A stretch of 64,000 nt of DNA from assembly GCF_008831285.2 (NCBI RefSeq), contig NC_045143.1, forward strand, positions 16,156,464 through 16,220,463, read 5' to 3'. Source of the DNA: Nymphaea colorata (Eukaryota; Streptophyta; Magnoliopsida; Nymphaeales; Nymphaeaceae). The position numbers and the translations under genes are program-made. The notes below the pieces were generated by a model. That model had not been told where the DNA came from and searched no databases. It saw nothing but the letters and a program-made list of their open reading frames with translations. Of this stretch, positions 1 through 26,751 are shown piece by piece (the first letter of the stretch is position 1; every line of letters begins with the position of its first letter).

Positions 1-1159
1 TTTCTTCACCAGGCTGCGGACCTTACTCTTGTTCCTTCTGTTGCCATTGCTCGAGATCTGCTAGCTGCTGAGGCAACAGAACGTAAGCTTATATCACCAA
101 TACTCCACAAATTTCATGCCTAGCTGCCTCTCGCTCACTACTTTGTTATTGTTTCAGCTCACAAAATCCGTCTTTGGAACAAAGGGATTGACTCAAAAAG
201 CTTCCATCCACATTACAGAAGTGAACAGATGCGGATCCGGCTTACGTGAGCAAGATTCCCTTGCTTCTCTTTTATTTTAGTATGTTTTTCTGCCTACAGG
301 CTGCAGAAACTCATTTCTTCTCTGTGATTCAGGAATGGTGAGCCAGAAAAGCCACTGATAATTCATGTGGGACGCTTAGGATTTGAAAAGAGCTTGGATT
401 TTCTTAAACGGTACAATCACATTGCTGGCACTGCTTAAGCTAGAACTTGTTTGATATTTTTTATTTTCCGAAAAAGTTAGCTTGTGATTGTTTTCACTTT
501 TCTGAAGTCGTGACAAATTTTGTAGCTTGATGGACCGACTTCCAGGTGTGAGAATTGCTTTTGTCGGAGATGGACCATACCGGTAAGCGCTAGGTTTTGT
601 CAAATAGCATCTACAAACCATGCACGTAAATTAGAAACTAATACCTTCTACTTTTCTCTGCAGGCCTGAGCTAGAGAAGATGTTCTCTGGCATGCCTGTT
701 GTGTTCACAGGGATGCTGCATGGTGAGGAACTTTCGCAAGCATATGCCAGCGGCGATGTGTTTGTGATGCCCTCAGAGTCCGAAACACTCGGGCAGGTGG
801 TGATGGAGGCTATGTCATCAGGTGTGCCGGTGGTGGCCGCCCGGGCAGGAGGAATACCGGATACTATTCCTGAAGATCAAGACGGAAAGATAAGCTACCT
901 GTTTACTCCTGGTGACGTAGATGACTGCCTCTGCAAAGTGCAGTCACTGCTTACGAATGAAGAGCTGAGAACAACTATGGGGAAAGCTGCCAGAGAAGAG
1001 ATGGAGAAGTATGATTGGAAAGCAGCAACGTACAAGATAAGAAACGAACAATATAATGCTGCCATTTGGTTCTGGAAGGAGAAAAGGGCTCAAGTACTCA
1101 GGCCTCTACAGTGGTTGCTTCAGTTAATAGTTAGATCCCCAGAGGATAAATGTAATTAA
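1..1159 (+). CDS. SQD2: Sulfoquinovosyltransferase SQD2, C-terminal part (5' end outside window)
   Basis: Transfers sulfoquinovose from UDP-sulfoquinovose to diacylglycerol, the last step of sulfolipid (SQDG) synthesis, in plastid membranes. Five exons are visible: 1-82, 158-245, 333-410, 526-582 and 664-1159, all with GT..AG borders and consistent phase, giving 266 C-terminal residues. It is a GT4-type glycosyltransferase. The segments NGEPEKPLIIHVGR, FVGDGPY and LSQAYASGDVFVMPSESETLG are seen, the last carrying the nucleotide-sugar E-x7-E region, followed by AARAGGIPD and a C-terminal AAIWFWKEK. These match remembered plant SQD2 very closely. The N-terminal transit peptide and acceptor domain lie left of the window. 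There is no in-frame damage, so it looks like an intact functional gene. The convergent neighbour is the FAS1/Josephin locus. Confidence 0.95.
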
Positions 1160-1686: not shown

Positions 1687-2310
1687 CTAATCACCTTCAT
1701 CAACAGGTTTGACTGCCTGCTCAAACTCCGCATCCATGATTACCCCATTTATTAAGTGTACAATGACCTTTCCTCTTCTGAGATCGACCAGCTTGGAGCG
1801 CACATTGTTAACCAACAACATTCCAGTAGAAACCTTGGTGACATCCAATCTAAATCCAGAAATCGAGTACAAGGGAAGCTCTTGACCGGATGACATTTCA
1901 ACTGACAACAAATGCTGAGGAACTGCACTGAAACCTAATACGCGAGAAAGAACAGCTTCCCTTTCACTTGCAGTCTGCTTATTATCACTGCCGTTAGCCT
2001 GCATCTTCAAGATCTCCTCAAAAGCTTGTTCTGATGGTATGAAAACTGTAAAAGGAAGATCGGTCCCAAGCATCTTAATCATTTCTTCACCGAGCAGACC
2101 AAGACTGTCGACCTCGAGCCTTTTCCTGAATCTCATTTGCTTGAGGGATAGAGAACCATTTATCTTGAAATTTGCATCAGGAAGCACAATAATTAAAAAG
2201 AATAGAACCATAACACAAGAAGAAAACAGGAACAATGCAAGCACCAGAGATGAACATCTACAAAGATGACTTCTTTTGACAGAACGCCTTGATCTTTTCA
2301 AGTATGCCAT
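1687..2310 (-). CDS. FAS1 (fasciclin)-domain protein with N-terminal membrane anchor
   Basis: 207 residues, no intron. A basic N-terminus (about residues 5-18) is followed by a strongly hydrophobic segment (about 22-44, rich in L, F, V and I), so a type II signal anchor or uncleaved signal is likely. The rest resembles one FAS1 domain: an early TVFIPSEQAFEEIL motif corresponding to the family's TVFAPsd-AF box, a middle LxxHLLSVE-like stretch, and a late VIVHLINGVI motif corresponding to the second conserved box. FAS1 domains are adhesion modules of cell-surface or secreted proteins. The ATG has G at -3 and +4, a favourable context. It starts 21 nt after the stop of the Josephin ORF and is in the same frame, so it could be the second cistron of one mRNA, a readthrough extension, or a separate gene whose promoter lies inside the Josephin exon. 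No independent promoter is evident. Confidence 0.75.
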   Translation of the reverse strand: MAYLKRSRRSVKRSHLCRCSSLVLALFLFSSCVMVLFFLIIVLPDANFKINGSLSLKQMRFRKRLEVDSLGLLGEEMIKMLGTDLPFTVFIPSEQAFEEILKMQANGSDNKQTASEREAVLSRVLGFSAVPQHLLSVEMSSGQELPLYSISGFRLDVTKVSTGMLLVNNVRSKLVDLRRGKVIVHLINGVIMDAEFEQAVKPVDEGD

Positions 2311-2331
2311 AGCAAGTGTATGGAAACCAGA

Positions 2332-3559
2332 TCACTCTTCGTCCTCCAAGATTATCAAAATCTCACCTCCCTCAGTGAGACTTGCATTCAAAAACTCCTT
2401 CATTTCATTATCATCTTTGAAAGTTACAGGCTCACGAAGATCACTGTCCAAGTTATACCAAAGACCATGAATTCTCCGTACTGCAATCCAGTGCCTACTA
2501 TTCCAAAGCCCGGCAAACCGTTTCACCGGAACGTTGAGCATCAAACCAGTTAAAGTGTCTGGTGATTGGTCAAGGTTGATGGCAGACGCATCATTCCGGC
2601 GATCATGCCATACAACCTTCTTACCTTTTCCCTCAAGTGCTGCAATAAGCACATTTACATCATAATTACCAGTTAAACTATTGTGGTGGGGCTTCCAGAT
2701 TACAGAGGCAATACTCCACGAATCTTCGTTTGTATCATCAACTGCTAGTTTGTCAGCTATGGCATCCAACTCTGCTTTTGTGAATGATTCCTTCACCTAA
2801 GCTAATAAGAAATAAAGATACTAAACAGATTTGTTCAAGTAGAAAACAAACTCTCGTTTCATATTCAAAAAATATCTTGAACGACGGAGCAGAACATAAA
2901 ATTCTATCCGACCACGTTTTCATGTTACGGCAATCACCTAGCTTTTTGTATGCTAATTGGGTAAAAATTTACTCTCGAACAATAGAATATTTTGTTGCTC
3001 GCACAGCCTCGTGTAATTGAACAACAAGAGGCCATTACGACCAACGGAAGTATTAGAAAGAAAAGCAAAGAAAAGGAAGAATCCAGGAAAGGAACCATTT
3101 TTAGGCAGCAGAATCGGAAACGTACTTCAAAATTCAATTTATTTGGATGGCTAACACAATACGTGCTAAATTAGGAGGACAGATTCCAGGTCAGGTTGAA
3201 ATGTCGGTTAACTCCTAAATCCCTGTTCTTGTTAATCTGAAAACGTCACTTCATCTCGAACCACTCACCACCACCTTCACTAATTGCTTTAAGGACAAAA
3301 TAAAACTGCTTTTTCGTTCTTAAAAGAAAACTAAATTTGGTTCGAGCATTTCAACAAGCAACTTGTGGGCGTGAAACTCACGATTAAAACATCGTTGGTG
3401 AATACACGATTATTTCTTATGTTACGGGATGAGCAAAGACTGTCAATCTGTCATCGCTCACCAATCTAAACAAGATAACCAAAAAAATTTCGCGTTGTTT
3501 GGGCGTAAAATACCCGGAAACAAATTCATCGGAGGTCCAGATCTGACATGGCTATTGGC

Positions 3560-3598
<39 letters not shown>

Positions 3599-3682
3599 TA
3601 CCTGCAGCAGATTGTTGAGCGCATGTAAGAGGCAGAATTGCAGGCGCTGCTTCTCGTGGTATATTTCTATTTTCTTCTCCAT
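2332..3682 (-). CDS. JOSL: Josephin-domain (ataxin-3-like) deubiquitinase
   Basis: Two exons: 3602-3682 (27 residues, ends CAG before GTAAC) and 2332-2796 (acceptor TTAG, phase 0), total 181 residues. It is a cysteine protease of the Josephin family, which cleaves ubiquitin chains. Visible signatures are the Gln and catalytic Cys in KQRLQFCLLHALNNLLQ (exon 1), the GNYDVNVLIAALEGKGKKVVWHDRR core, and the catalytic His in WNSRHWIAVR followed by the Asn/Asp of NLDSDL (exon 2). The length matches a bare Josephin domain, as in small Josephin proteins, without ataxin-3 UIMs or polyQ. The start is the only ATG that precedes the catalytic box in frame. The stop is TGA, and the reading frame continues open through 7 codons into the ATG of the FAS1 ORF. 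The 805-bp intron begins almost directly with a (CT)n tract. Confidence 0.88.
3564..3594. repeat. (AG)n microsatellite in the Josephin intron
   Basis: About 15 AG units. On the gene strand it is a CT tract starting a few bases inside the 5' splice site. Likely length-polymorphic. Confidence 0.9.
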
Positions 3683-4898: not shown

Positions 4899-6365
4899 CT
4901 ATGGCGCGGCGGTGACGTACCGCATGAACTCTGGGTCGCGCTCGAGCAGCGCCATGGTGTCGGGGGCGAGGCACATCTCGACGTCGACGCTCCCGGAGCC
5001 ATCCCGGCCGGGAAACGCCGACATCTTCCCGTCGAACTTGTTCGCTCGTCCGCTCCTCACAGCCACCGGCGGGCCCCACCCAAAGTCGTTGTTGTACATG
5101 GGGAATCTGGCGGAGCTGCCCATGGTTATAGACGCCCCGTCGGCGTTCCCGAGCGGGAACGCCCGCGGCGCCTTCTCCCATTCGTCTACCATCCCCCTGA
5201 TAGTCGCGTCTCCGTGCTCCACCACCCCGCGGTGGAGCATCCCTGCCGCCCACCCAATCTCCCGCTTGAGGAGATCACCCACCTCGGCGGCCGTCGCGAT
5301 GCTCTGGATGGCGTTCCCGAAATACTCAGGGTGAAGCGGGGGGTTCAGCCGGTGCCGACAGTTCGCTGCCATCCGGAATGTCGTCCTTTTCGTCGAGGGA
5401 AGCCTCCTCGCGCGCGTCACCGACCTCCAGATCTGCGCGCATAACGATTGAAACGACGATACTTCCGCCGTCGGCGACACTCTTCTCGGCCAGCTCGCTG
5501 CGCTTGTTGCCCTTTGGCCATTGCAGGACTTGGCCTTTTTCCAAACATCGTTGCTTTCCTTACCCATCACCTCGACCTCCATCATCTCCCTGTTGAAGAG
5601 CTTCCCCTTGTTAGCGAGCTCCTTCAGGTCGAGAACCGCCTGCCGGCTGAAGCGGAATATCCGCTCCCTGACCGGAGCCGTCGGAGGAGTCAGGATCTTA
5701 CCCGGCGCATTACGGCTGCCCTCGAACCGGACTCGGAGAACCGCCGCTGAATCTTTGACGAAGAACCTATGAGTCTCAGGCGGGCGCGAGACCTCGTTCG
5801 ACCCCCGCGCGATCTCAGCCCAAGTGTTGAAGAAGTTCCAGAAGGATGTGCCGTCGGCGACTGCGTGGTTGACGGTTGCCGCGATGAAGACTCCGTCAGC
5901 CAGCACAGACACCTGGACGGCGGCCAGGGGCATGAAATGGCCGTCGTAGCTGACAGCATCGTTGAGGGCAAAAAACTGGCGCACGAATACCGGCACGTCG
6001 TTCGGCGCTAAAACGTGGCCGAGCATGACGCTGGGGGCAGCAGCGTGGACGAACGGGACTCCCGAATCGTCGCAATCAACGTAGACGAAGCCGCTGGAGT
6101 CGGTCCGGAGGCGGCCGGCGAGCATGGGGAAGTAGACGAGGGTGCGGGAGAGGGCGGCCTTGATGAGTTGGAGAAGGGCGTCCCCGGAGACAGCGGGGCA
6201 TGTGGGGAAGAGTACGCCCTTCTGAATATAGTTGACGGAGAGCATGGGGAGGTCGGAGGCGGTGAGCTTGGAGAGGCTCGGACGAGTGGGACGCTCGGGG
6301 AAGACGGTGCTCTCCGAGAGGAGCGTTACGATTGAACTAGAGTCGGGAAATGCAGTTATGGCCAT
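4899..6365 (-). CDS. BAHD-family acyltransferase
   Basis: 488 residues in one exon. BAHD enzymes move an acyl group from acyl-CoA to an alcohol or amine in specialised metabolism, in the cytosol. The catalytic HxxxD motif is HAVAD at residues 167-171 and the structural DFGWG motif is intact at 427-431. Family landmarks such as LTASDLPMLSVNYIQKG, LVYFPMLAGRL, a YFGNAI box and a late ANKFDGK region are in the expected order. The N-terminal LSVNYIQKG wording recalls the plant clade annotated as HHT1-like or uncharacterized acetyltransferases. Substrate cannot be deduced. At 488 residues it is slightly longer than the usual 430-460; the extra length lies mainly in the Arg/Ser-rich linker around residues 260-300. 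The gene is clearly GC-rich against AT-rich flanks and lacks introns. Long ORFs on the opposite strand are shadows of this composition. Confidence 0.93.
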   Translation of the reverse strand: MAITAFPDSSSIVTLLSESTVFPERPTRPSLSKLTASDLPMLSVNYIQKGVLFPTCPAVSGDALLQLIKAALSRTLVYFPMLAGRLRTDSSGFVYVDCDDSGVPFVHAAAPSVMLGHVLAPNDVPVFVRQFFALNDAVSYDGHFMPLAAVQVSVLADGVFIAATVNHAVADGTSFWNFFNTWAEIARGSNEVSRPPETHRFFVKDSAAVLRVRFEGSRNAPGKILTPPTAPVRERIFRFSRQAVLDLKELANKGKLFNREMMEVEVMGKESNDVWKKAKSCNGQRATSAASWPRRVSPTAEVSSFQSLCAQIWRSVTRARRLPSTKRTTFRMAANCRHRLNPPLHPEYFGNAIQSIATAAEVGDLLKREIGWAAGMLHRGVVEHGDATIRGMVDEWEKAPRAFPLGNADGASITMGSSARFPMYNNDFGWGPPVAVRSGRANKFDGKMSAFPGRDGSGSVDVEMCLAPDTMALLERDPEFMRYVTAAP

Positions 6366-12447: not shown

Positions 12448-14898
12448 CTTATATTCACATTTGGACGAGTAATCCGCACAAAAAATAAAATTACACATTT
12501 TTGCCTTCTCCGTTTTCTGTTTTTCATACCTATGATGAATAGGAGGGCGTGTTTGAAAGGTTGGGATCTCAAAGTACTTTTGAGTAGGCCTGGGGAAGAA
12601 TACCTGCAGCGGTGCTTATGCTAGAAGATGCTTTACAAAAGGGCATATCTCCAACTGCTATCACGTGGCACATATTAACTAGAGCAGTATTTAACGATGA
12701 GCAGAGAGTGAGCATGGTGCATGACGATGACTCTTATTAGATGCCTTGGTTGTCGATCGTGCGTCTTTGAATTTATCAGTAAAACATCTCCTGGAAGGTG
12801 AGCAAGTTATGATGCTGAAGCTTCTTCTGCTTCGTAGTGTGGATTTGTGCACCTCTTTGCGAGCAATCTTGAAGTACACAAACTTTTGCCCTCACAATGC
12901 TCACATTTAAGAATGTATTTGCAATTGCGGTAGAGCAGCCCAGGGAACTAACCAGTGTTTGTTTTCCTCTCGTTAGATGGTTAATTTGGAGCTGAGAACG
13001 ACACGGGTCGGCCTGAGTATGAGCCTGATGCTGCACTCCAAACTGAGCGTCGTTGAACGATTACTTCACGTCAATATGAGGACTAGCCTGATGCTGCTGC
13101 AGTTCACAATAACCTTCCCGCTTGAAGAAGCAACTTTACTAGAAGATTACTTCAGAAAGCACTAAAGCAAAGGCTGCTTTTGAGATTACGTTCTTGGTTC
13201 AGAATATTCCCAGCTTGTAGCTCATGACATACAATGACATAATAGGTACGTAGCATTGTTTTTCAATTGTTCGTGGATGCCATTCATTTTATGATTTGAT
13301 AATGACAGCAGGTCATTTTCCTGTACAGGTTCTTATCTTCAAACCTTTTTCGTTCGGACATTGAGTTGATTTTGATCCCAAGGAAGATTGTGTGTAGCTA
13401 AGTGGTGCGAGCATTTGTTTGGACTCGGCATCGTCTTGGCTTATGCTCTGTTGTATATGAAGGGTTTAATAGTCTCAGATATTAGCTGAAGTGAGTTTCA
13501 CCAGCCCTGAAATCCTCAGATTTAATGTCAGAGCTTTATAGGGTCTTAATTGAGATCTTGTCATTTGAAACTGAAAGTTGTGGATTTTAAATTCGATCAC
13601 CATAAGATTTCAGACCCTCGTTTGATAAAGCTTGGAATTTGATTTGCAGCTAATGCCATATAATAATAACCAAAGATTTAGAACACCCTGATCACTTGGG
13701 ATTGGTACTTACGTATTAAATGTACTTCCAAATTTATACGTATTGAATATACTTCCATATTGATCTTCTCTAAGTCATCGATCATGTTAATTTTGATTAG
13801 TAGGTATTGTCTTTGAATATTTTATTCAGTTTTTGCCTTTTAACAGATGCTTATGCCGAATTCCGATCAAAGGCCTTTATCATTGCAGGACGGATAAATG
13901 AGACTTTATGTATGTCATGTCTGAGCAAAGGATACAGAATCAGTTTATCTCATCCATCTTGATAGTCCGTATATGTGCACATCTACTCACACAGTTGTTT
14001 TAGCTCATTCATTTTGATATTCCACATTTGAATGCTAGTGCCATTTCAATAGGCTGTCATGACACTTTATCAGCACGACAACACTTTTGCGAACCACTAT
14101 GCATCGGAAATTGGTCATTTGAGTTACATTTCTTGGCAAGGGCAGAAATATTGTCAAGATGAAGTCAGATGCAAAAGGAAACTATGCTTGTCGTATCAAA
14201 CCTCAGGTGCAAGAACTCTCTGGGGTGTATTATGTCATGCTACATTGTTGTCAATCTGATCGTTTCACAGGAACGTTGATACATCTCTGCTCTCTGCTCT
14301 CCTCTCTCTCGCGCGCTCTCTCTCTTTCTTGTTTGCAGTTCTTTTACTCATATTTTGGTTCTTCTGCCCTTGCAGTATACAGCTGTACAGGCTACAGTAT
14401 CAATGAAGGCGATCAGCAGCAAGCAAAAGATGCCTTCTTATCCCTCTCATCGCTCCCCCAGCTTTCCACCAGTAAAAACGGAAAAGATATTATGTTAACC
14501 CAAATTTTTAAGCGTAAGAACCTAATGTCCGTAATAGCTTTTGAGATCCACTCTATTAACAGCTGTATCTTTTCTGCTGCCCTTTTCTGACCATGATAGA
14601 GAATGCATTATGCCGGAAGTATGCATTGTTTACCATCAACATGCTTAAACAGTTGAACTTTGGACTTACTCACAGATGCAAGAGGCAACCCTAACTTTCG
14701 ACGGCCCATCTGTGTCATGGGCATCTTTTTCGACCAACTGCAATCCAAGTTCATATCCTCTTGCACCAGTGTTCAATGGGTTGCAGCAAACCAGGACTTT
14801 CTGTTGGAGTATGGATCGAGGTGATTTTTTACAGCGTCTGTGATGCGTACGCATGTTGACTAGCTGTCGGAAGACCAATTTGAGCCAGTTGCAAGGGC
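12448..14898. other. Intergenic DNA left of the retrotransposon array
   Basis: About 2.4 kb without a recognised gene. ORFs up to 143 codons (14159-14590) lack family motifs. A CT-rich patch lies near 14295-14330. The last bases CATAG are the left target duplication of the array. Confidence 0.5.
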
Positions 14899-14903
14899 CA
14901 TAG
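14899..14903. repeat. Left target-site duplication (CATAG)
   Basis: Five bases directly before the first LTR terminus TGTCACG; identical to 26752-26756. Confidence 0.9.
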
Positions 14904-17817
14904 TGTCACGACCCAATTTTTGACACCAAAAATTTTCTTTCATTTCTATGATAGCGGAAGCAATATTGAGTCATGACCAGAACATAAGACACTGTTTTAT
15001 TTCAATAATAAAATACTTGGACCCAAACAAAAATAACCACAAATCCCCAAAACCGACGCAGTGTCCAGAATGCCAATGCCCGTCCATCACAAGACTGAGG
15101 TCGTCGCTCCAAAGCAAAAGCTATCAAGGACTACCTGTAGATAGAAAGAAGGGTCAGAATTCCTCTGAGTATGAGAAAATCCAGCCATGAATGGAACATG
15201 GCCCAAAATAATATTTAGTTTCGTAAACAATTCCAAAAAAGGCCTTATGAACTACAACCATAAGTTTTCCAAAACTTAGCACATATCAGAGTTACATCAC
15301 ATCATCAATGACAGAACGAGGTGTGCACAACCTCCAAAATTTCGTAGGCTTCCAACCGTGGTTCTCTGACAATGTCATGGTCATCGTGCCGAGCAACAGA
15401 AATCCCCGTGGGCACTCACGGGCAGAACAGAACATATCTTCACCAGGCGATCCAACGGATCGAGGGTACCTGAAGTGAAGCCTCCTGAGATATCCCAGAT
15501 CGCCGCTGCAGCAGCATGGCCCCTCTAGGAACCCGGTTTGAGGGACCAGGAGATGTCTCTCCCAACACAGCAGCAGTACCCCGGGCCCTTGTGCCGCCCA
15601 ATACCCTGTGGGCCCTCCAGTACAGCCAGAGGAGTGTGACCACTACCTTCCGGGACGAAACCAAACACTGGGCAAAACAGAAAGCTCGCACTCGCATAAA
15701 CCATCGCACAAAGTCCACGTTTCGCCTTCGAATTTCAAAAGTGAGGGTTTGCCAATGCTAGACATCGTCTAGTACCTCTCACAGAAACCGCCCTTAGGCT
15801 CGGTTTCCCAGACAAAAACAATAAACCATTTTTTTGATAATGGCCTCCAAACATAGAAACAACATACAGAGTATCACGCCAAAATTTCTCAAATAAAATA
15901 ACCATTCAAAAGTAAGAGAATTTATACTTTAAATTCTTACAACGTGACTTTCCTCTTCAACTTTTCGAAATTGATTTCAGGACCATCTTTCTGAAATTTT
16001 AATTTTAAACACCATTACGAGCATCAACGAGCAATAACACATAACTTTTCATGTGTAATTTATAAAACTACCCTTTGGCAATTTATAAAAACTTAAAGGG
16101 TATCGAAACGAAATTTCATATTAAACATCCGTTTCCTATTGAAAAACACTTTCGCAAGCCTCTTTTTGAAGAGGTTTTCAGCAAAAATGTTGCAGCATAG
16201 AAGTTATAAAATATATAACAGCTTATCTGAATATTTTGCTAATTAGTGGACCCGTTTTGAAATTTTTCCAACTTGATATAAAAATGAACCACGCTCGTTT
16301 TTCTTTCATTTCACCGCTTCGTTTTCTCTCTCCTCACGAGCCTCCTTCCTTTCGTTCAACCGACGGTGGCTTCCACCGTTCTTCCTCACTCAAAACCAGC
16401 GAAAAGCGGGACCATGGGGAGAGATCTGTCCTCCTCCCGCAAGCTCCAACGCTCTGGTTTCCCACCGCCGTCCGATGCTCTCAACCACCACCTCCTCCTC
16501 TGCTGCTCTCGTTTTTCAGCCCTGCCACCGTGAGGGAGACGACCTCCCCAAACCAGGCATGTCTCTCTCTGCTCCTCCTTCCTTGCGACGAGAATGAACC
16601 GGCAGCAAGGAGGACCCTGCTCTTCCAGGCGACAGGGAGAAACCGACTACAATGGGGGACGACATGAGGAAACCTGCCACGTCAAGGTCGTGTTCTCCAA
16701 TTTCCCCCAAATCACCTCTGCAACATTCCTTGTTTTCCTTATGTCGATCAGAGCAGGCGTTGCTCTCTGTCGACGACACTGAGCAGAGTCTGCTTCTCCT
16801 TTTCTGTTGTTGGTTCGGATTCTTTAACGCATCCTTATTACAACTATACATACTTTGTTTAATGTTGGCTTAGTCTCGTTTTCTCACAAGTGAAATAAGC
16901 GAAATATAAGAAGAAGGGGAAAACAGCATGATACGAGTCATCGGAGAAGGTTCAATAACCCAACGAAGACTAACATACCTCACCCTTCATACCTCGCATG
17001 CTTCGATTTCTTTGAAAAGAACCATAACTTATAATACTATATTTCCATCCCAACATACACTAACTCATGCATAGATTCATATTTATGCATACAAATACAA
17101 AGGTCCAAGAAAATCGGAGACGAATCGAAGAACATTGTGTAACATTAACATCATACAACGCCTCATGCATATGTTCATGTCTAGGCGTATACATTCATAA
17201 ATCCACATTGCATATGTATGTATAAGAACTCAAAATATACAGGCTTCATGCTGCATTCATAACTGAAATTTCCCATACCTATCAAAGTCTGTCACAACCT
17301 TCTTGTTCCTCTTTCGCAGTCCCTTTTCTTGATCTTCTGATTCTTTTCCAGCGACCACCCACTTCAACCTCAACGAGAAAGAAAACAAGAATGAGGATGT
17401 CTCTCTCTCTCTTTCTCTCAAATCCTCTTGTTGCTGGACTCTCTAGTCGATGGCTGTAGCAATAAGGGATGATTATTTTTCAACCTCTCCCAAGGGAATG
17501 AATAACCCGTCAGTTTTTCTTTTCCCTTTCTTTCTCTCAAATTCTCAATTGTTGAGTTTTCTCTTCTATGAAGGCAGTAAAGAAAGGGTTAATTATTGTA
17601 AATCAGATCTAAAGAGCCCCCTTCACAACCCTTGTAACTGTCATACGAATTTCTTTTCGTTTCTTTTTTTCATTTCTTTCCATAGTTTCTCTCTTTTTCA
17701 TTTAATTGGCAGTTTCCATTTCATTTTTGCAGTCATTTAAACCTACCGTTTATGATTTCCTGCTCATAATAACGTTCCCATAATTAAGGAAACTTAATAA
17801 AAATCGTGGGTCTTACA
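14904..17817 (-). repeat. LTR a (3' LTR of the array in element orientation)
   Basis: 2914 bp, TG..CA ends. It carries a private 6-bp duplication near 16001-16010 and several private single-base differences in its left half. It contains a GC-rich stretch at about 16290-16700 with open frames on both strands (143 and 111 codons) that recur in all copies but resemble no known protein. Confidence 0.9.
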
Positions 17818-17830
17818 TCCTTTCCCCCTA
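17818..17830 (-). promoter_or_regulatory. Polypurine tract of internal region 1
   Basis: On the minus strand TAGGGGGAAAGGA abuts the LTR start TGTAAGACC; it is the expected plus-strand primer of the element. Confidence 0.8.
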
Positions 17831-17853
17831 AAAAGAAATTTCGTCCTCGAAAT

Positions 17854-19182
17854 TTAAACATACCATATTAAAAGAACTGGGGATAACTCTTTCTCATGTC
17901 TTGTTTTGCATGTGTCTTTGTTTTTCATGGGCGTAGCGACTAACATTTGATCAAACATATTCTTTCTTTCTAACTTTAAAATTTCAACAAAGCTCTTAGA
18001 AACGAAAGAATGCGATGCACCAGAGTCAAACAGAATATGAGACCAATGAGGTTGTACAAGAAGGGTACCTTCATTCACATCAGTGGATCTCAAATCTTCA
18101 ACCGTGGTCGCGTAAACTCTCCCAGGTACCTTCTTCTCTACTGGTTGGTTTGCTGCACCTCGCCCCTGTTCTGCCTCTTTCTTCTTCGGGCACTCACGAA
18201 TAAAATGTCCTCGCCTTCCACAATAGAGACATGCCCCGACCTCTCTGTAACATGGTTTGCCGGGGTGTTGGCGATGACATGTGGGACATTCATCGTCCTG
18301 CCTGGATGTTGATGGCCTCTGTCTCTTGAATCTATCCCCTTGGTTCACCTTGTCACTGCGTATGTCTGGCATCGACTTGGATCGCAGAGATTCACTTTTT
18401 CTATCTGTCCCATGCATCCTGTTCCAGCCTTCCTCAAGACGTGTGGCCATGTCGATAGCGTCGTCTAGATCTCTTGGACGACTACTAATTACTTGGTTCT
18501 GCAACCCGTCTTTAAGTCCTCTGACGAACTTGTTTGCTCGGTCCGCATCAGCAGTATACACATGGGGGCAATACTTTTCCAGATGTCTGAATTTGACGAC
18601 GTATTCGTGCAGACTCAAACTCCCTTGCTGAAGCTCCAAGAATTCTTGCATGCGTTTCTCCCGTGTGAAGGTTGGGATGTAGGCATGTGTGAAGGCTTCC
18701 TTGAATTCTCCCCAGGTCGCTTCGTGATTTGCGAACTTCACCTCACGTTGCGTTCGCCACCATTCCTTAGCATCTCCTTTTAGCATAAAAGTTCCATATC
18801 GAACCTTCTTGTTGTCAGGCACTTCGAGGGTGGTAAAGATCTCCTCAGTTTCTATTATCCACTGTTCAGCATCGTCCGCACTGCCTTTCCCATGAAACTT
18901 CGGAGGGTGCAAGCTCATAAACTGTTGGTGAGTTACTCCCCTTGCCTCACCATTCGTCGTTCTGTTTGTATCCGTACTTGTTCCTCCTGAAGAAGTATTT
19001 TGCGTCATGCCATACATCAATCCTGTCATCATCTGCAAAGTGTTCATGATGAATGTCTGTTGTTGTTGGATGTTTCTACCAGGCGTCCTAGGTCTAGTAG
19101 GATGAGCCTCTGTGTTTCGGTTCCCGTTGTTGCGAGGAGTTCTCCTTCCTCCACTAACACTCCCTCCTCTAGTGCGTGCCAT
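17854..19182 (-). CDS. Retrotransposon gag polyprotein with truncated protease, copy 1
   Basis: The start is taken at MARTRGG (19182); the frame is open further upstream to 19227 but that extension does not look like Gag. The order is a basic Gly/Arg-rich N-terminus, a Retrotrans_gag domain (LHPPKFHGKGSADDAEQWI through WWRTQ and a long helical part), a CCHC zinc knuckle CLYCGRRGHFIREC, and the first half of an aspartic protease with its active-site motif LFDSGASHSFVS. After about 20 further residues the frame switches abruptly to an unrelated tail and stops next to the polypurine tract, so reverse transcriptase, RNase H and integrase are gone. Gag would form the particle; this is an internal-deletion derivative of a Ty3/gypsy element. 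Confidence 0.9.
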   Translation of the reverse strand: MARTRGGSVSGGRRTPRNNGNRNTEAHPTRPRTPGRNIQQQQTFIMNTLQMMTGLMYGMTQNTSSGGTSTDTNRTTNGEARGVTHQQFMSLHPPKFHGKGSADDAEQWIIETEEIFTTLEVPDNKKVRYGTFMLKGDAKEWWRTQREVKFANHEATWGEFKEAFTHAYIPTFTREKRMQEFLELQQGSLSLHEYVVKFRHLEKYCPHVYTADADRANKFVRGLKDGLQNQVISSRPRDLDDAIDMATRLEEGWNRMHGTDRKSESLRSKSMPDIRSDKVNQGDRFKRQRPSTSRQDDECPTCHRQHPGKPCYREVGACLYCGRRGHFIRECPKKKEAEQGRGAANQPVEKKVPGRVYATTVEDLRSTDVNEGTLLVQPHWSHILFDSGASHSFVSKSFVEILKLERKNMFDQMLVATPMKNKDTCKTRHEKELSPVLLIWYV

Positions 19183-19361
19183 TGAACTACACCGCACAGA
19201 GGAAACAAATATGAATACGTAAAGCAATTCATTAGAACTACCACAAAAATATGAAACTCAATATTCACGTCGAAATCTAAACACCCTTCTTTAACAGGTT
19301 TGGATAACACTTCCTCTGCTTGTGATCTACATTGGCATTGGACATGGACTCTAGACACTGT

Positions 19362-19373
19362 GCTCTGATACCA
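19362..19373 (-). promoter_or_regulatory. Primer-binding site, initiator tRNA-Met, copy 1
   Basis: On the minus strand TGGTATCAGAGC begins four bases after the LTR end. It is the standard complement of the 3' end of plant initiator tRNA-Met. Confidence 0.9.
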
Positions 19374-19377
19374 AAGT

Positions 19378-22282
19378 TGTCACGACCCAATTTTTGACAC
19401 CAAAAATTTTCTTTCATTTCTATGATAGCGGAAGCAATATTGAGTCATGACCAGAACATAAGACACTGTTTTATTTCAATAATAAAATACTTGGACCCAA
19501 ACAAAAATAACCACAAATCCCCAAAACCGACGCAGTGTCCAGAATGCCAATGTCCGTCCATCACAAGACTGAGGTCGTCGCTCCAAAGCAAAAGCTATCA
19601 AGGACTACCTGTAGATAGAAAGAAGGGTCAGAATTCCTCTGAGTATGAGAAAATCCAGCCATGAATGGAACATGGCCCAAAATAATATTTAGTTTCGTAA
19701 ACAATTCCAAAAAAGGCCTTATGAACTACAACCATAAGTTTTCCAAAACTTAGCACATATCAGAGTTACATCACATCATCAATGACAGAACGAGGTGTGC
19801 ACAACCTCCAAAATTTCGTAGGCTTCCAACCGTGGTTCTCTGACAATGTCATGGTCATCGTGCCGAGCAACAGAAATCCCCGTGGGCACTCACGGGCAGA
19901 ACAGAACATATCTTCACCAGGCGATCCAACGGATCGAGGGTACCTGAAGTGAAGCCTCCTGAGATATCCCAGATCGCCGCTGCAGCAGCATGGCCCCTCT
20001 AGGAACCCGGTTTGAGGGACCAGGAGATGTCTCTCCCAACACAGCAGCAGTACCCCGGGCCCTTGTGCCGCCCAATACCCTGTGGGCCCTCCAGTACAGC
20101 CAGAGGAGTGTGACCACTACCTCCCGGGACGAAACCAAACACTGGGCAAAACAGAAAGCTCGCACTCGCATAAACCATCGCACAAAGTCCACGTTTCGCC
20201 TTCGAATTTCAAAAGTGAGGGTTTGCAAATGCTAGACATCGTCTAGTACCTCTCACAGAAACCGCCCTTAGGCTCGGTTTCCCAGACAGAAACAATAAAC
20301 CATTTTTTTGATAATGGCCTCCAAACATAGAAACAACATACAGACTATCACGCCAAAATTTCTCAAATAAAATAACCATTCAAAAGTAAGAGAATTTATA
20401 CTTTAAATTCTTACAACGTGACTTTCCTCTTCAACTTTTCGAAATTGATTTCAGGACCATCTTTCTGAAATTTTAAACACCATTACGAGCATCAACGAGC
20501 AATAACACATAACTTTTCATGTGTAATTTATAAAACTACCCTTTGGCAATTTATAAAAACTTAAAGGGTATCGAAACGAAATTTCATATTAAACATCCGT
20601 TTCCTATTGAAAAACACTTTCGCAAGCCTCTTTTTGAAGAGGTTTTTAGCAAAAATGTTGCAGCATAGAAGTTATAAAATATATAACAGCTTATCTGAAT
20701 ATTTTGCTAATTAGTGGACCCGTTTTGAAATTTTTCCAACTTGATATAAAAATGAACCACGCTCGTTTTTCTTTCATTTCACCGCTTCGTTTTCTCTCTC
20801 CTCACGAGCCTCCTTCCTTTCGTTCAACCGACGGTGGCTTCCACCGTTCTTCCTCACTCAAAACCAGCGAAAAGCGGGACCATGGGGAGAGATCTGTCCT
20901 CCTCCCGCAAGCTCCAACGCTCTGGTTTCCCACCGCCGTCCGATGCTCTCAACCACCACCTCCTCCTCTGCTGCTCTCGTTTTTCAGCCCTGCCACCGTG
21001 AGGGAGACGACCTCCCCAAACCAGGCATGTCTCTCTCTGCTCCTCCTTCCTTGCGACGAGAATGAACCGGCAGCAAGGAGGACCCTGCTCTTCCAGGCGA
21101 CAGGGAGAAACCGACTACAATGGGGGACGACATGAGGAAACCTGCCACGTCAAGGTCGTGTTCTCCAATTTCCCCCAAATCACCTCTGCAACATTCCTTG
21201 TTTTCCTTATGTCGATCAGAGCAGGCGTTGCTCTCTGTCGACGACACTGAGCAGAGTCTGCTTCTCCTTTTCTGTTGTTGGTTCGGATTCTTTAACGCAT
21301 CCTTATTACAACTATACATACTTTGTTTAATGTTGGCTTAGTCTCGTTTTCTCACAAGTTAAATAAGCGAAATATAAGAAGGGGAAAACAGCATGATACG
21401 AGTCATCGGAGAAGGTTCAATAACCCAACGAAGACTAACATACCTCACCCTTCATACCTCGCATGCTTCGATTTCTTTGAAAAGAACCATAACTTATAAT
21501 ACTATATTTCCATCCCAACATACACTAACTCATGCATAGATTCATATTTATGCATACAAATACAAAGGTCCAAGAAAATCGGAGACGAATCGAAGAACAT
21601 TGTGTAACATTAACATCATACAACGCCTCATGCATATGTTCATGTCTAGGCGTATACATTCATAAATCCACATTGCATATGTATGTATAAGAACTCAAAA
21701 TATACAGGCTTCATGCTGCATTCATAACTGAAATTTCCCATACCTATCAAAGTCTGTCACAACCTTCTTGTTCCTCTTTCGCAGTCCCTTTTCTTGATCT
21801 TCTGATTCTTTTCTAGCGACCACCCACTTCAACCTCAACGAGAAAGAAAACAAGAATGAGGATGTCTCTCTCTCTCTCTCTCTCAAATCCTCTTGTTGCT
21901 GGACTCTCTAGTCGATGGCTGTAGCAATAAGGGATGATTATTTTTCAACCTCTCCCAAGGGAATGAATAACCCGTCAGTTTTTCTTTTCCCTTTCTTTCT
22001 CTCAAATTCTCAATTGTTGAGTTTTCTCTTCTATGAAGGCAGTAAAGAAAGGGTTAATTATTGTAAATCAGATCTAAAGAGCCCCCTTCACAACCCTTGT
22101 AACTGTCATACGAATTTCTTTTCGTTTCTTTTTTTCATTTCTTTCCATAGTTTCTCTCTTTTTCATTTAATTGGCAGTTTCCATTTCATTTTTGCAGTCA
22201 TTTAAACCTACCGTTTATGTTTTCCTGCTCATAATAACGTTCCCATAATTAAGGAAACTTAATAAAAATCGTGGGTCTTACA
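19378..22282 (-). repeat. LTR b (shared middle LTR)
   Basis: 2905 bp. At sites where LTR a is private in the left half, b agrees with c. In the right half b has its own changes, including a 3-bp deletion (one GAA fewer near 21378). It serves as both the 5' LTR of unit 1 and the 3' LTR of unit 2. Confidence 0.9.
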
Positions 22283-22295
22283 TCCTTTCCCCCTA
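22283..22295 (-). promoter_or_regulatory. Polypurine tract of internal region 2
   Basis: Same purine tract as in copy 1, directly before the LTR b start on the minus strand. Confidence 0.8.
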
Positions 22296-22318
22296 AAAAG
22301 AAATTTCGTCCTCGAAAT

Positions 22319-23647
22319 TTAAACATACCATATTAAAAGAACTGGGGATAACTCTTTCTCATGTCTTGTTTTGCATGTGTCTTTGTTTTTCATGGGCGTA
22401 GCGACTAACATTTGATCAAACATATTCTTTCTTTCTAACTTTAAAATTTCAACAAAGCTCTTAGAAACGAAAGAATGCGATGCACCAGAGTCAAACAGAA
22501 TATGAGACCAATGAGGTTGTACAAGAAGGGTACCTTCATTCACATCAGTGGATCTCAAATCTTCAACCGTGGTCGCGTAAACTCTCCCAGGTACCTTCTT
22601 CTCTACTGGTTGGTTTGCTGCACCTCGCCCCTGTTCTGCCTCTTTCTTCTTCGGGCACTCACGAATAAAATGTCCTCGCCTTCCACAATAGAGACATGCC
22701 CCGACCTCTCTGTAACATGGTTTGCCGGGGTGTTGGCGATGACATGTGGGACATTCATCGTCCTGCCTGGATGTTGATGGCCTCTGTCTCTTGAATCTAT
22801 CCCCTTGGTTCACCTTGTCACTGCGTATGTCTGGCATCGACTTGGATCGCAGAGATTCACTTTTTCTATCTGTCCCATGCATCCTGTTCCAGCCTTCCTC
22901 AAGACGTGTGGCCATGTCGATAGCGTCGTCTAGATCTCTTGGACGACTACTAATTACTTGGTTCTGCAACCCGTCTTTAAGTCCTCTGACGAACTTGTTT
23001 GCTCGGTCCGCATCAGCAGTATACACATGGGGGCAATACTTTTCCAGATGTCTGAATTTGACGACGTATTCGTGCAGACTCAAACTCCCTTGCTGAAGCT
23101 CCAAGAATTCTTGCATGTGTTTCTCCCGTGTGAAGGTTGGGATGTAGGCATGTGTGAAGGCTTCCTTGAATTCTCCCCAGGTCGCTTCGTGATTTGCGAA
23201 CTTCACCTCACGTTGCGTTCGCCACCATTCCTTAGCATCTCCTTTTAGCATAAAAGTTCCATATCGAACCTTCTTGTTGTCAGGCACTTCGAGGGTGGTA
23301 AAGATCTCCTCAGTTTCTATTATCCACTGTTCAGCATCGTCCGCACTGCCTTTCCCATGAAACTTCGGAGGGTGCAAGCTCATAAACTGTTGGTGAGTTA
23401 CTCCCCTTGCCTCACCATTCGTCGTTCTGTTTGTATCCGTACTTGTTCCTCCTGAAGAAGTATTTTGCGTCATGCCATACATCAATCCTGTCATCATCTG
23501 CAAAGTGTTCATGATGAATGTCTGTTGTTGTTGGATGTTTCTACCATGCGTCCTAGGTCTAGTAGGATGAGCCTCTGTGTTTCGGTTCCCGTTGTTGCGA
23601 GGAGTTCTCCTTCCTCCACTAACACTCCCTCCTCTAGTGCGTGCCAT
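22319..23647 (-). CDS. Retrotransposon gag polyprotein with truncated protease, copy 2
   Basis: Same length and domain order as copy 1, with the zinc knuckle and DSGA protease motif intact. Only a couple of residues differ (for example P to H in the N-terminal Arg/Pro-rich part and R to H before MQEFLELQQ). The frame is fully open, so this copy is as coding-competent as the first. The start is chosen at MARTRGG. Confidence 0.9.
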   Translation of the reverse strand: MARTRGGSVSGGRRTPRNNGNRNTEAHPTRPRTHGRNIQQQQTFIMNTLQMMTGLMYGMTQNTSSGGTSTDTNRTTNGEARGVTHQQFMSLHPPKFHGKGSADDAEQWIIETEEIFTTLEVPDNKKVRYGTFMLKGDAKEWWRTQREVKFANHEATWGEFKEAFTHAYIPTFTREKHMQEFLELQQGSLSLHEYVVKFRHLEKYCPHVYTADADRANKFVRGLKDGLQNQVISSRPRDLDDAIDMATRLEEGWNRMHGTDRKSESLRSKSMPDIRSDKVNQGDRFKRQRPSTSRQDDECPTCHRQHPGKPCYREVGACLYCGRRGHFIRECPKKKEAEQGRGAANQPVEKKVPGRVYATTVEDLRSTDVNEGTLLVQPHWSHILFDSGASHSFVSKSFVEILKLERKNMFDQMLVATPMKNKDTCKTRHEKELSPVLLIWYV

Positions 23648-23826
23648 TGAACTACACCGCACAGAGGAAACAAATATGAATACGTAAAGCAATTCATTAG
23701 AACTACCACAAAAATATGAAACTCAATATTCACGTCGAAATCTAAACACCCTTCTTTAACAGGTTTGGATAACACTTCCTCTGCTTGTGATCTACATTGG
23801 CATTGGACATGGACTCTAGACACTGT

Positions 23827-23838
23827 GCTCTGATACCA
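23827..23838 (-). promoter_or_regulatory. Primer-binding site, initiator tRNA-Met, copy 2
   Basis: TGGTATCAGAGC on the minus strand, four bases after the end of LTR c in element orientation. Confidence 0.9.
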
Positions 23839-23842
23839 AAGT

Positions 23843-26751
23843 TGTCACGACCCAATTTTTGACACCAAAAATTTTCTTTCATTTCTATGATAGCGGAAGC
23901 AATATTGAGTCATGACCAGAACATAAGACACTGTTTTATTTCAATAATAAAATACTTGGACCCAAACAAAAATAACCACAAATCCCCAAAACCGACGCAG
24001 TGTCCAGAATGCCAATGCCCGTCCATCACAAGACTGAGGTCGTCGCTCCAAAGCAAAAGCTATCAAGGACTACCTGTAGATAGAAAGAAGGGTCAGAATT
24101 CCTCTGAGTATGAGAAAATCCAACCATGAATGGAACATGGCCCAAAATAATATTTAGTTTCGTAAACAATTCCAAAAAAGGCCTTATGAACTACAACCAT
24201 AAGTTTTCCAAAACTTAGCACATATCAGAGTTACATCACATCATCAATGACAGAACGAGGTGTGCACAACCTCCAAAATTTCGTAGGCTTCCAACCGTGG
24301 TTCTCTGACAATGTCATGGTCATCGTGCCGAGCAACAGAAATCCCCGTGGGCACTCACGGGCAGAACAGAACATATCTTCACCAGGCGATCCAACGGATC
24401 GAGGGTACCTGAAGTGAAGCCTCCTGAGATATCCCAGATCGCCGCTGCAGCAGCATGGCCCCTCTAGGAACCCGGTTTGAGGGACCAGGAGATGTCTCTC
24501 CCAACACAGCAGCAGTACCCCGGGCCCTTGTGCCGCCCAATACCCTGTGGGCCCTCCAGTACAGCCAGAGGAGTGTGACCACTACCTCCCGGGACGAAAC
24601 CAAACACTGGGCAAAACAGAAAGCTCGCACTCGCATAAATCATCGCACAAAGTCCACGTTTCGCCTTCGAATTTCAAAAGTGAGGGTTTGCCAATGCTAG
24701 ACATCGTCTAGTACCTCTCACAGAAACCGCCCTTAGGCTCGGTTTCCCAGACAGAAACAATAAACCATTTTTTTGATAATGGCCTCCAAACATAGAAACA
24801 ACATACAGACTATCACGCCAAAATTTCTCAAATAAAATAACCATTCAAAAATAAGAGAATTTATACTTTAAATTCTTACAACGTGACTTTCCTCTTCAAC
24901 TTTTCGAAATTGATTTCAGGACCATCTTTCTGAAATTTTAAACACCATTACGAGCATCAACGAGCAATAACACATAACTTTTCATGTGTAATTTATAAAA
25001 CTACCCTTTGGCAATTTATAAAAACTTAAAGGGTATCGAAACGAAATTTCATATTAAACATCTGTTTCCTATTGAAAAACACTTTCGCAAGCCTCTTTTT
25101 GAAGAGGTTTTTAGCAAAAATGTTGCAGCATAGAAGTTATAAAATATATAACAGCTTATCTGAATATTTTGCTAATTAGTGGACCCGTTTTGAAATTTTT
25201 CCAACTTGATATAAAAATGAACCACGCTCGTTTTTCTTTCATTTCACCGCTTCGTTTTCTCTCTCCTCACGAGCCTCCTTCCTTTCGTTCAACCGACGGT
25301 GGCTTCCACCGTTCTTCCTCACTCAAAACCAGCGAAAAGCGGGACCATGGGGAGAGATCTGTCCTCCTCCCGCAAGCTCCAACGCTCTGGTTTCCCACCG
25401 CCGTCCGATGCTCTCAACCACCACCTCCTCCTCTGCTGCTCTCGTTTTTCAGCCCTGCCACCGTGAGGGAGACGACCTCCCCAAACCAGGCATGTCTCTC
25501 TCTGCTCCTCCTTCCTTGCGACGAGAATGAACCGGCAGCAAGGAGGACCCTGCTCTTCCAGGCGACAGGGAGAAACCGACTACAATGGGGGACGACATGA
25601 GGAAACCTGCCACGTCAAGGTCGTGTTCTCCAATTTCCCCCAAATCACCTCTGCAACATTCCTTGTTTTCCTTATGTCGATCAGAGCAGGCGTTGCTCTC
25701 TGTCGACGACACTGAGCAGAGTCTGCTTCTCCTTTTCTGTTGTTGGTTCGGATTCTTTAACGCATCCTTATTACAACTATACATACTTTGTTTAATGTTG
25801 GCTTAGTCTCGTTTTCTCACAAGTGAAATAAGCGAAATATAAGAAGAAGGGGAAAACAGCATGATACGAGTCATCGGAGAAGGTTCAATAACCCAACGAA
25901 GACTAACATACCTCACCCTTCATACCTCGCATGCTTCGATTTCTTTGAAAAGAACCATAACTTATAATACTATATTTCCATCCCAACATACACTAACTCA
26001 TGCATAGATTCATATTTATGCATACAAATACAAAGGTCCAAGAAAATCGGAGACGAATCGAAGAACATTGTGTAACATTAACATCATACAACGCCTCATG
26101 CATATGTTCATGTCTAGGCGTATACATTCATAAATCCACATTGCATATGTATGTATAAGAACTCAAAATATACAGGCTTCATGCTGCATTCATAACTGAA
26201 ATTTCCCATACCTATCAAAGTCTGTCACAACCTTCTTGTTCCTCTTTCGCAGTCCCTTTTCTTGATCTTCTGATTCTTTTCCAGCGACCACCCACTTCAA
26301 CCTCAACGAGAAAGAAAACAAGAATGAGGATGTCTCTCTCTCTCTTTCTCTCAAATCCTCTTGTTGCTGGACTCTCTAAGTCGATGGCTGTAGCAATAAG
26401 GGATGATTATTTTTCAACCTCTCCCAAGGGAATGAATAACCCGTCAGTTTTTCTTTTCCCTTTCTTTCTCTCAAATTCTCAATTGTTGAGTTTTCTCTTC
26501 TATGAAGGCAGTAAAGAAAGGGTTAATTATTGTAAATCAGATCTAAAGAGCCCCCTTCACAACCCTTGTAACTGTCATACGAATTTCTTTTCGTTTCTTT
26601 TTTTCATTTCTTTCCATAGTTTCTCTCTTTTTCATTTAATTGGCAGTTTCCATTTCATTTTTGCAGTCATTTAAACCTACCGTTTATGATTTCCTGCTCA
26701 TAATAACGTTCCCATAATTAAGGAAACTTAATAAAAATCGTGGGTCTTACA
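23843..26751 (-). repeat. LTR c (5' LTR of the array in element orientation)
   Basis: 2909 bp, TG..CA ends. It lacks the 6-bp duplication of LTR a, has one extra A near 26378 and a few private substitutions. It would drive transcription of the array. Confidence 0.9.

Follow-up and report, generated by a model that had tools for sequence, protein, structure and literature searches.

A Josephin-2-like gene and a predicted membrane FAS1 reading frame 21 nt apart in Nymphaea colorata: a probable nested or dicistronic pair

The window analysed here, i.e. the whole stretch of 64,000 nt from contig NC_045143.1 of N. colorata (positions 16,156,464 to 16,220,463), contains a Josephin gene of two exons on its minus strand and, directly behind it, an open reading frame (ORF) for a predicted membrane protein with a FAS1 (Fasciclin) domain. 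In window coordinates, the pair and its neighbours are arranged as follows.

3682-3602, minus strand: Josephin exon 1, 27 codons (MEKKIEIYHEKQRLQFCLLHALNNLLQ), carrying Gln15 and Cys17
3601-2797, minus strand: Josephin intron, GT-AG, 805 nt, phase 0
2796-2332, minus strand: Josephin exon 2, carrying His129 and Asn142, with the TGA at 2334-2332
2331-2311, minus strand: inter-ORF gap of 21 nt (TCTGGTTTCCATACACTTGCT), seven codons (SGFHTLA), stop-free in the common frame
2310-1687, minus strand: FAS1 ORF of 207 aa, ATG at 2310 and stop at 1689-1687, with a basic N-terminus, a hydrophobic anchor at about residues 20-43 and a Fasciclin domain at residues 77-192
680-1159, plus strand: convergent neighbour, the 3' end of a glycosyltransferase group 1 gene (Pfam PF00534, E 1.7e-20), which we take to be SQD2-like
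4899-6365, minus strand, as the pair: upstream neighbour, an acyltransferase gene (Pfam PF02458 Transferase, E 2.3e-92), presumably of the BAHD type

In Arabidopsis, an acyltransferase gene, SQD2 (At5g01220) and a 'josephin-like' gene (At5g01225) may also be neighbours. Scans of the 64,000 nt with Rfam (at gathering scores) and for tRNAs gave no matches. Elsewhere in the window (14898-26751) lies a tandem Ty3-type retrotransposon remnant, in which a gag/aspartyl-protease ORF is present twice, at 17854-19257 (the copy that was run against Pfam) and, near-identical and 4465 nt further, at 22319-23722. The repeats that bracket the Ty3-type copies are 99.4-99.5% alike, a pattern expected from recombination between the repeats of neighbouring copies.

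The Josephin gene encodes 181 aa from its two exons and ends GAC GAA GAG TGA, exactly as a preliminary description of this DNA had it. The identities proposed in that description, Josephin for the first ORF and membrane FAS1 for the second, are both confirmed by Pfam, with E-values of 7.5e-38 for the former (PF02099, profile positions 1-156 of 157) and 2.9e-9 for the latter (Fasciclin, 37.6 bits at a curated cut-off of 22, profile positions 15-122 of 123). Residues 7-178 of the Josephin protein align to the Josephin-2 chain 6pgv_A with an E-value of 9.9e-32 (query residue 7 pairing with chain residue 14), whereas ataxin-3 chains are matched more weakly (E 4.7e-9 and worse). Gln15, Cys17, His129 and Asn142, which we take to be the residues with a catalytic role in Josephin deubiquitinases, are all present; the Cys, His and Asn match those of Josephin-2 in the alignment, where the position of the Gln is occupied by Glu. 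By its sequence, the gene is thus a Josephin-2-like, predicted deubiquitinase of the JOSD1/JOSD2 type. On an approximate plant splice-site scoring table, the acceptor of its intron (2797) is the top-scoring AG of the minus strand between 1600 and 3760 and the donor (3601) the fifth-best GT. The Josephin ATG has a C at -3 (weak) and a G at +4, and four further AUGs lie within the 318 nt 5' of it, at -254, -228, -107 and -98, and may be part of the mRNA.

In structural comparisons, the FAS1 ORF also matches the FAS1 chain of TGFBI (1w7d_A, E 1.9e-5) and periostin FAS1. Its hydropathy peaks at 2.97 over residues 23-43, which predicts a membrane segment directly after its own ATG, and this start stands in a good context with G at both -3 and +4, in agreement with the earlier description. 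The net charge is +7 before the anchor (residues 1-18) and +5 behind it (residues 45-64), values that leave the topology of the FAS1 protein, or of a fusion, ambiguous. Within the FAS1 ORF, close to the 3' end, an AATAAA is found at 1753 (minus strand); its use could give rise to an mRNA for Josephin only.

After splicing, frame 0 is open for 181 and then for 214 codons, while the other two frames stay open for no more than 60 and 40 codons, respectively; given these long runs and the two curated domains, both ORFs are considered to be real coding sequence. The stop-free, in-frame gap of 21 nt between the Josephin stop and the 207-residue FAS1 ORF, as first reported, was found again. The common frame is, however, weak evidence: the chance of the two ORFs being in frame (1/3) with a gap free of stops ((61/64)^7, i.e. 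0.71) is ~0.24 when all codons are taken as equally likely, which means that by itself it is no evidence of a fusion. The unusual part of the locus is the tight 21-nt spacing.

That frame would nonetheless look as it does if the UGA were a mistake of sequencing or assembly, or had arisen recently by nonsense mutation, within one fused ORF of 181 + 214 codons. An error could strike anywhere, whereas this stop falls at the very end of the Josephin domain (156 of 157) and seven codons before the Met that starts the anchor; a UGA that separates a complete Josephin domain from the beginning of a signal-anchor protein is unlikely to be a random sequencing error, and this explanation is regarded as highly improbable. 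We know of no fusion of the Josephin-FAS1 type.

A continuous frame that is open across the gap is also what stop-codon readthrough would require, by which some ribosomes would decode the UGA and produce a protein in which a link of 8 residues connects a cytosolic Josephin domain with a membrane anchor and a FAS1 domain in the lumen, an arrangement that a type II anchor would permit. Results on 144 Arabidopsis genes with readthrough evidence (PMC9293766) indicate that UGA is enriched among them and that A or U tends to flank the stop on either side. In the window, the stop is preceded by G rather than by A or U, the commonest bases at that position in those genes, and followed by U (UGA-UCU), so that the UGA and the U fit and the context is half in favour. 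Neither CUA nor CUAG follows the UGA, and the RNA of the UGA region is no more structured than shuffled versions of it (z of 0.83 in 2241-2340 and of 0.13 in 2231-2325, with z between -1.21 and 0.38 for four other stretches used as controls). Moreover, the FAS1 ORF has its own ATG in a good context, the charges on either side of the anchor leave the required topology ambiguous and the frame could well be shared by chance. The readthrough fusion has little in its favour, and we consider it decidedly unlikely. Of the two proposals in the preliminary description, a dicistronic mRNA or a readthrough locus, it is the first, as a dicistronic or nested arrangement, that the geometry of the locus supports, whereas the second is not supported.

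Splicing that removes the UGA or skips Josephin could be another route to a fusion, or to an mRNA for FAS1 alone. Three donor-like sites on the minus strand of exon 2, at 2366 (GAG/GTGAGA, 8.6), 2669 (CTG/GTAATT, 9.2) and 2624 (AAG/GTAAGA, 11.2), all outscore the real donor (8.2), and of eight candidate introns over the UGA (donor >3, acceptor >1.5, length 65-500 nt, on the same approximate table) three are in frame, all of them from the donor at 2366. The acceptors do not match these donors: no good one was found downstream near 2624, 2669 or 2366, and those in 2311-2480 are poor, the best scoring 2.1 compared to 8.2 for the real acceptor. All eight candidate introns end within the FAS1 ORF, at 2031 or beyond, and the in-frame ones (336, 432 and 444 nt, acceptors at most 2.8) would remove the FAS1 start, the anchor and part of the domain. 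A short intron that takes out the UGA was set low for want of a good acceptor, and alternative splicing as a whole appears very improbable.

What remains to be explained is how the two ORFs would be expressed as such. One mechanism, proposed for green algae, is an exclusively dicistronic mRNA on which the second ORF is reached by leaky scanning, and the pyrimidine at -3 of the Josephin ATG together with the better context of the FAS1 ATG is in line with it. Against it stands the length of the first ORF (181 codons), as well as its AUG content: between the two starts there are 16 AUGs, compared to an average of 13.8 after 5000 rounds of synonymous shuffling (fraction of rounds with 16 or fewer, 0.93). 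At algal bicistronic loci the median ratios of observed to expected AUGs before ORF 2 are given as 0.49 and 0.43 in PMC11291117, where the expectation follows from length and GC and not from shuffling as here. With no depletion of AUGs between the starts leaky scanning fits poorly, and we hold this mechanism to be very unlikely.

The reading that we prefer, with a probability of roughly 65%, is a two-gene locus, nested or dicistronic, that yields two separate proteins. A capped transcript from upstream of 3682, spliced once, would give a JOSD1/2-type deubiquitinase ending at the UGA. Any Josephin 3' UTR longer than ~20 nt includes the FAS1 start, and unless polyadenylated within the FAS1 ORF this mRNA would be dicistronic in form. 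An unspliced FAS1 leader, in turn, can only lie in Josephin coding sequence, and the FAS1 membrane protein would most likely come from shorter transcripts that start within Josephin exon 2 and, to a smaller extent, from reinitiation on the long mRNA; that the two ORFs have a frame in common would be a matter of chance. Reinitiation across 21 nt after an ORF of 181 codons is expected to be of weak efficiency. The last AUG before the FAS1 ATG lies 77 nt upstream of it, so that a leader of up to 76 nt is free of AUGs, and it is because such a leader is possible that a nested FAS1 transcript is preferred over reinitiation. In addition, the Josephin coding sequence and the gap hold 17 frames that open with an AUG (that of Josephin included); these close at -482 to -21 relative to the FAS1 ATG, which means that none of them overlaps the FAS1 start. 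The two-protein reading is further supported by the near end-to-end Pfam matches, each predicted ORF having a natural start and end.

Some observations count against this two-protein reading. The sequence just upstream of the FAS1 ORF showed no convincing core promoter, and exon 2 yielded a single TATA-like string, 147 nt away from the FAS1 ATG, a distance that would leave AUGs in the FAS1 leader. The four AUGs 5' of the Josephin ATG would also count against it, should they be part of the mRNA. The FAS1 ORF could also be unexpressed, i.e. a relic next to a working Josephin gene, which would suit its being a single copy without a near paralogue. Its 207 codons are, however, intact with both anchor and domain, and its GC by codon position (0.49/0.35/0.41) resembles that of the Josephin ORF (0.53/0.32/0.45), which makes a relic unlikely.

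The single-copy status follows from searches of the genome assembly (407.8 Mb in 783 contigs), in which the FAS1 protein found only itself at E-values up to 1 (two candidates scored). The genome has at least 18 Fasciclin domain hits, the one in the window included; among the 119 ORFs of at least 100 aa in 18 Fasciclin loci, phmmer at an E-value of 1 found only the window's own, and the best other BLASTP match was 31% identical over 77 aa (E 0.055). Six Josephin matches were obtained, namely the window gene, two pieces on contig C5 and three matches on contigs C122 and C307. The C5 pieces (2886353-2886637, with two internal stops, and 2888452-2888667) jointly span the profile and appear to be parts of one further gene; the sole Fasciclin hit on that contig (690273) is more than 2 Mb away from them. 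C122 and C307 are small (35.7 and 41.2 kb), and their Josephin matches all contain internal stops, with 30% identity to the gene in the window on C122; possible explanations are pseudogenes, introns that were read through, or foreign DNA within the assembly.

Collections other than plants contributed little. Against viral contigs, nine pattern-matched stretches for the FAS1 protein and eight for the Josephin protein led to no confirmed match, and a search of plasmids with the Josephin protein returned none. Of 43 pattern matches of the FAS1 protein in non-plant genome contigs one was confirmed, an uninformative stretch of 27% identity in a Myxococcales MAG. Among the titles and abstract openings listed by searches of open-access literature, none describes a Josephin-FAS1 pair. 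A more far-reaching possibility, which we rate as remote, is that the pair is a long-conserved plant dicistronic unit, in which one RNA would serve a deubiquitinase and a lumenal FAS1 protein and a minor readthrough form would tether the deubiquitinase to a secretory membrane.

Provided that both proteins are produced and that the pair proves to be conserved, the locus would be a good test case for how a flowering plant translates a second ORF that starts 21 nt past the stop of an ORF of 181 codons. If it merely consists of two overlapping transcription units, it would neatly illustrate gene crowding and be a pitfall for annotation, by which one of the two genes may be fused or dropped.

Compared to known systems, the window gene is like the JOSD1/JOSD2-type deubiquitinases in its length, its whole-domain match and its catalytic Cys, His and Asn, but unlike them its stop lies 21 nt before the start of another gene. 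Three Arabidopsis Josephin proteins, AT1G07300, AT2G29640 and AT3G54130, are listed as being of unknown function in PMC3928566. Relative to other proteins with FAS1 domains, the window ORF is a single diverged domain behind an N-terminal anchor. With the Arabidopsis readthrough genes described in PMC9293766 the locus shares the UGA and the open downstream frame, but here this frame encodes a whole domain protein that has an ATG of its own; the word josephin is absent from the main text of that paper, the gene table of which is in the supplement.

The green-algal bicistronic loci, as portrayed in PMC11291117, resemble the window pair in that the ORFs have their own starts and stops, a short gap and a weak base at -3 of ORF 1, whereas the pair differs from them by its undepleted AUGs before ORF 2 and by an ORF 1 of 181 codons. 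The closest parallel is found in the Arabidopsis reannotation, in which, according to PMC1082884, at least 20 mRNAs span two adjacent genes, several of which also have separate full-length cDNAs; its authors suggest that in many cases such dicistronic transcripts may be aberrant, the result of termination having failed. The three pairs given there as examples are genes other than Josephin and FAS1, and the window pair differs in being known from its geometry alone, with a gap that is 21 nt long and in frame. Like the window pair, the Arabidopsis transcripts hold two complete adjacent ORFs split by stop codons, and it is as a new example of this already known kind, the dicistronic plant transcripts, that the pair is most likely to be understood.
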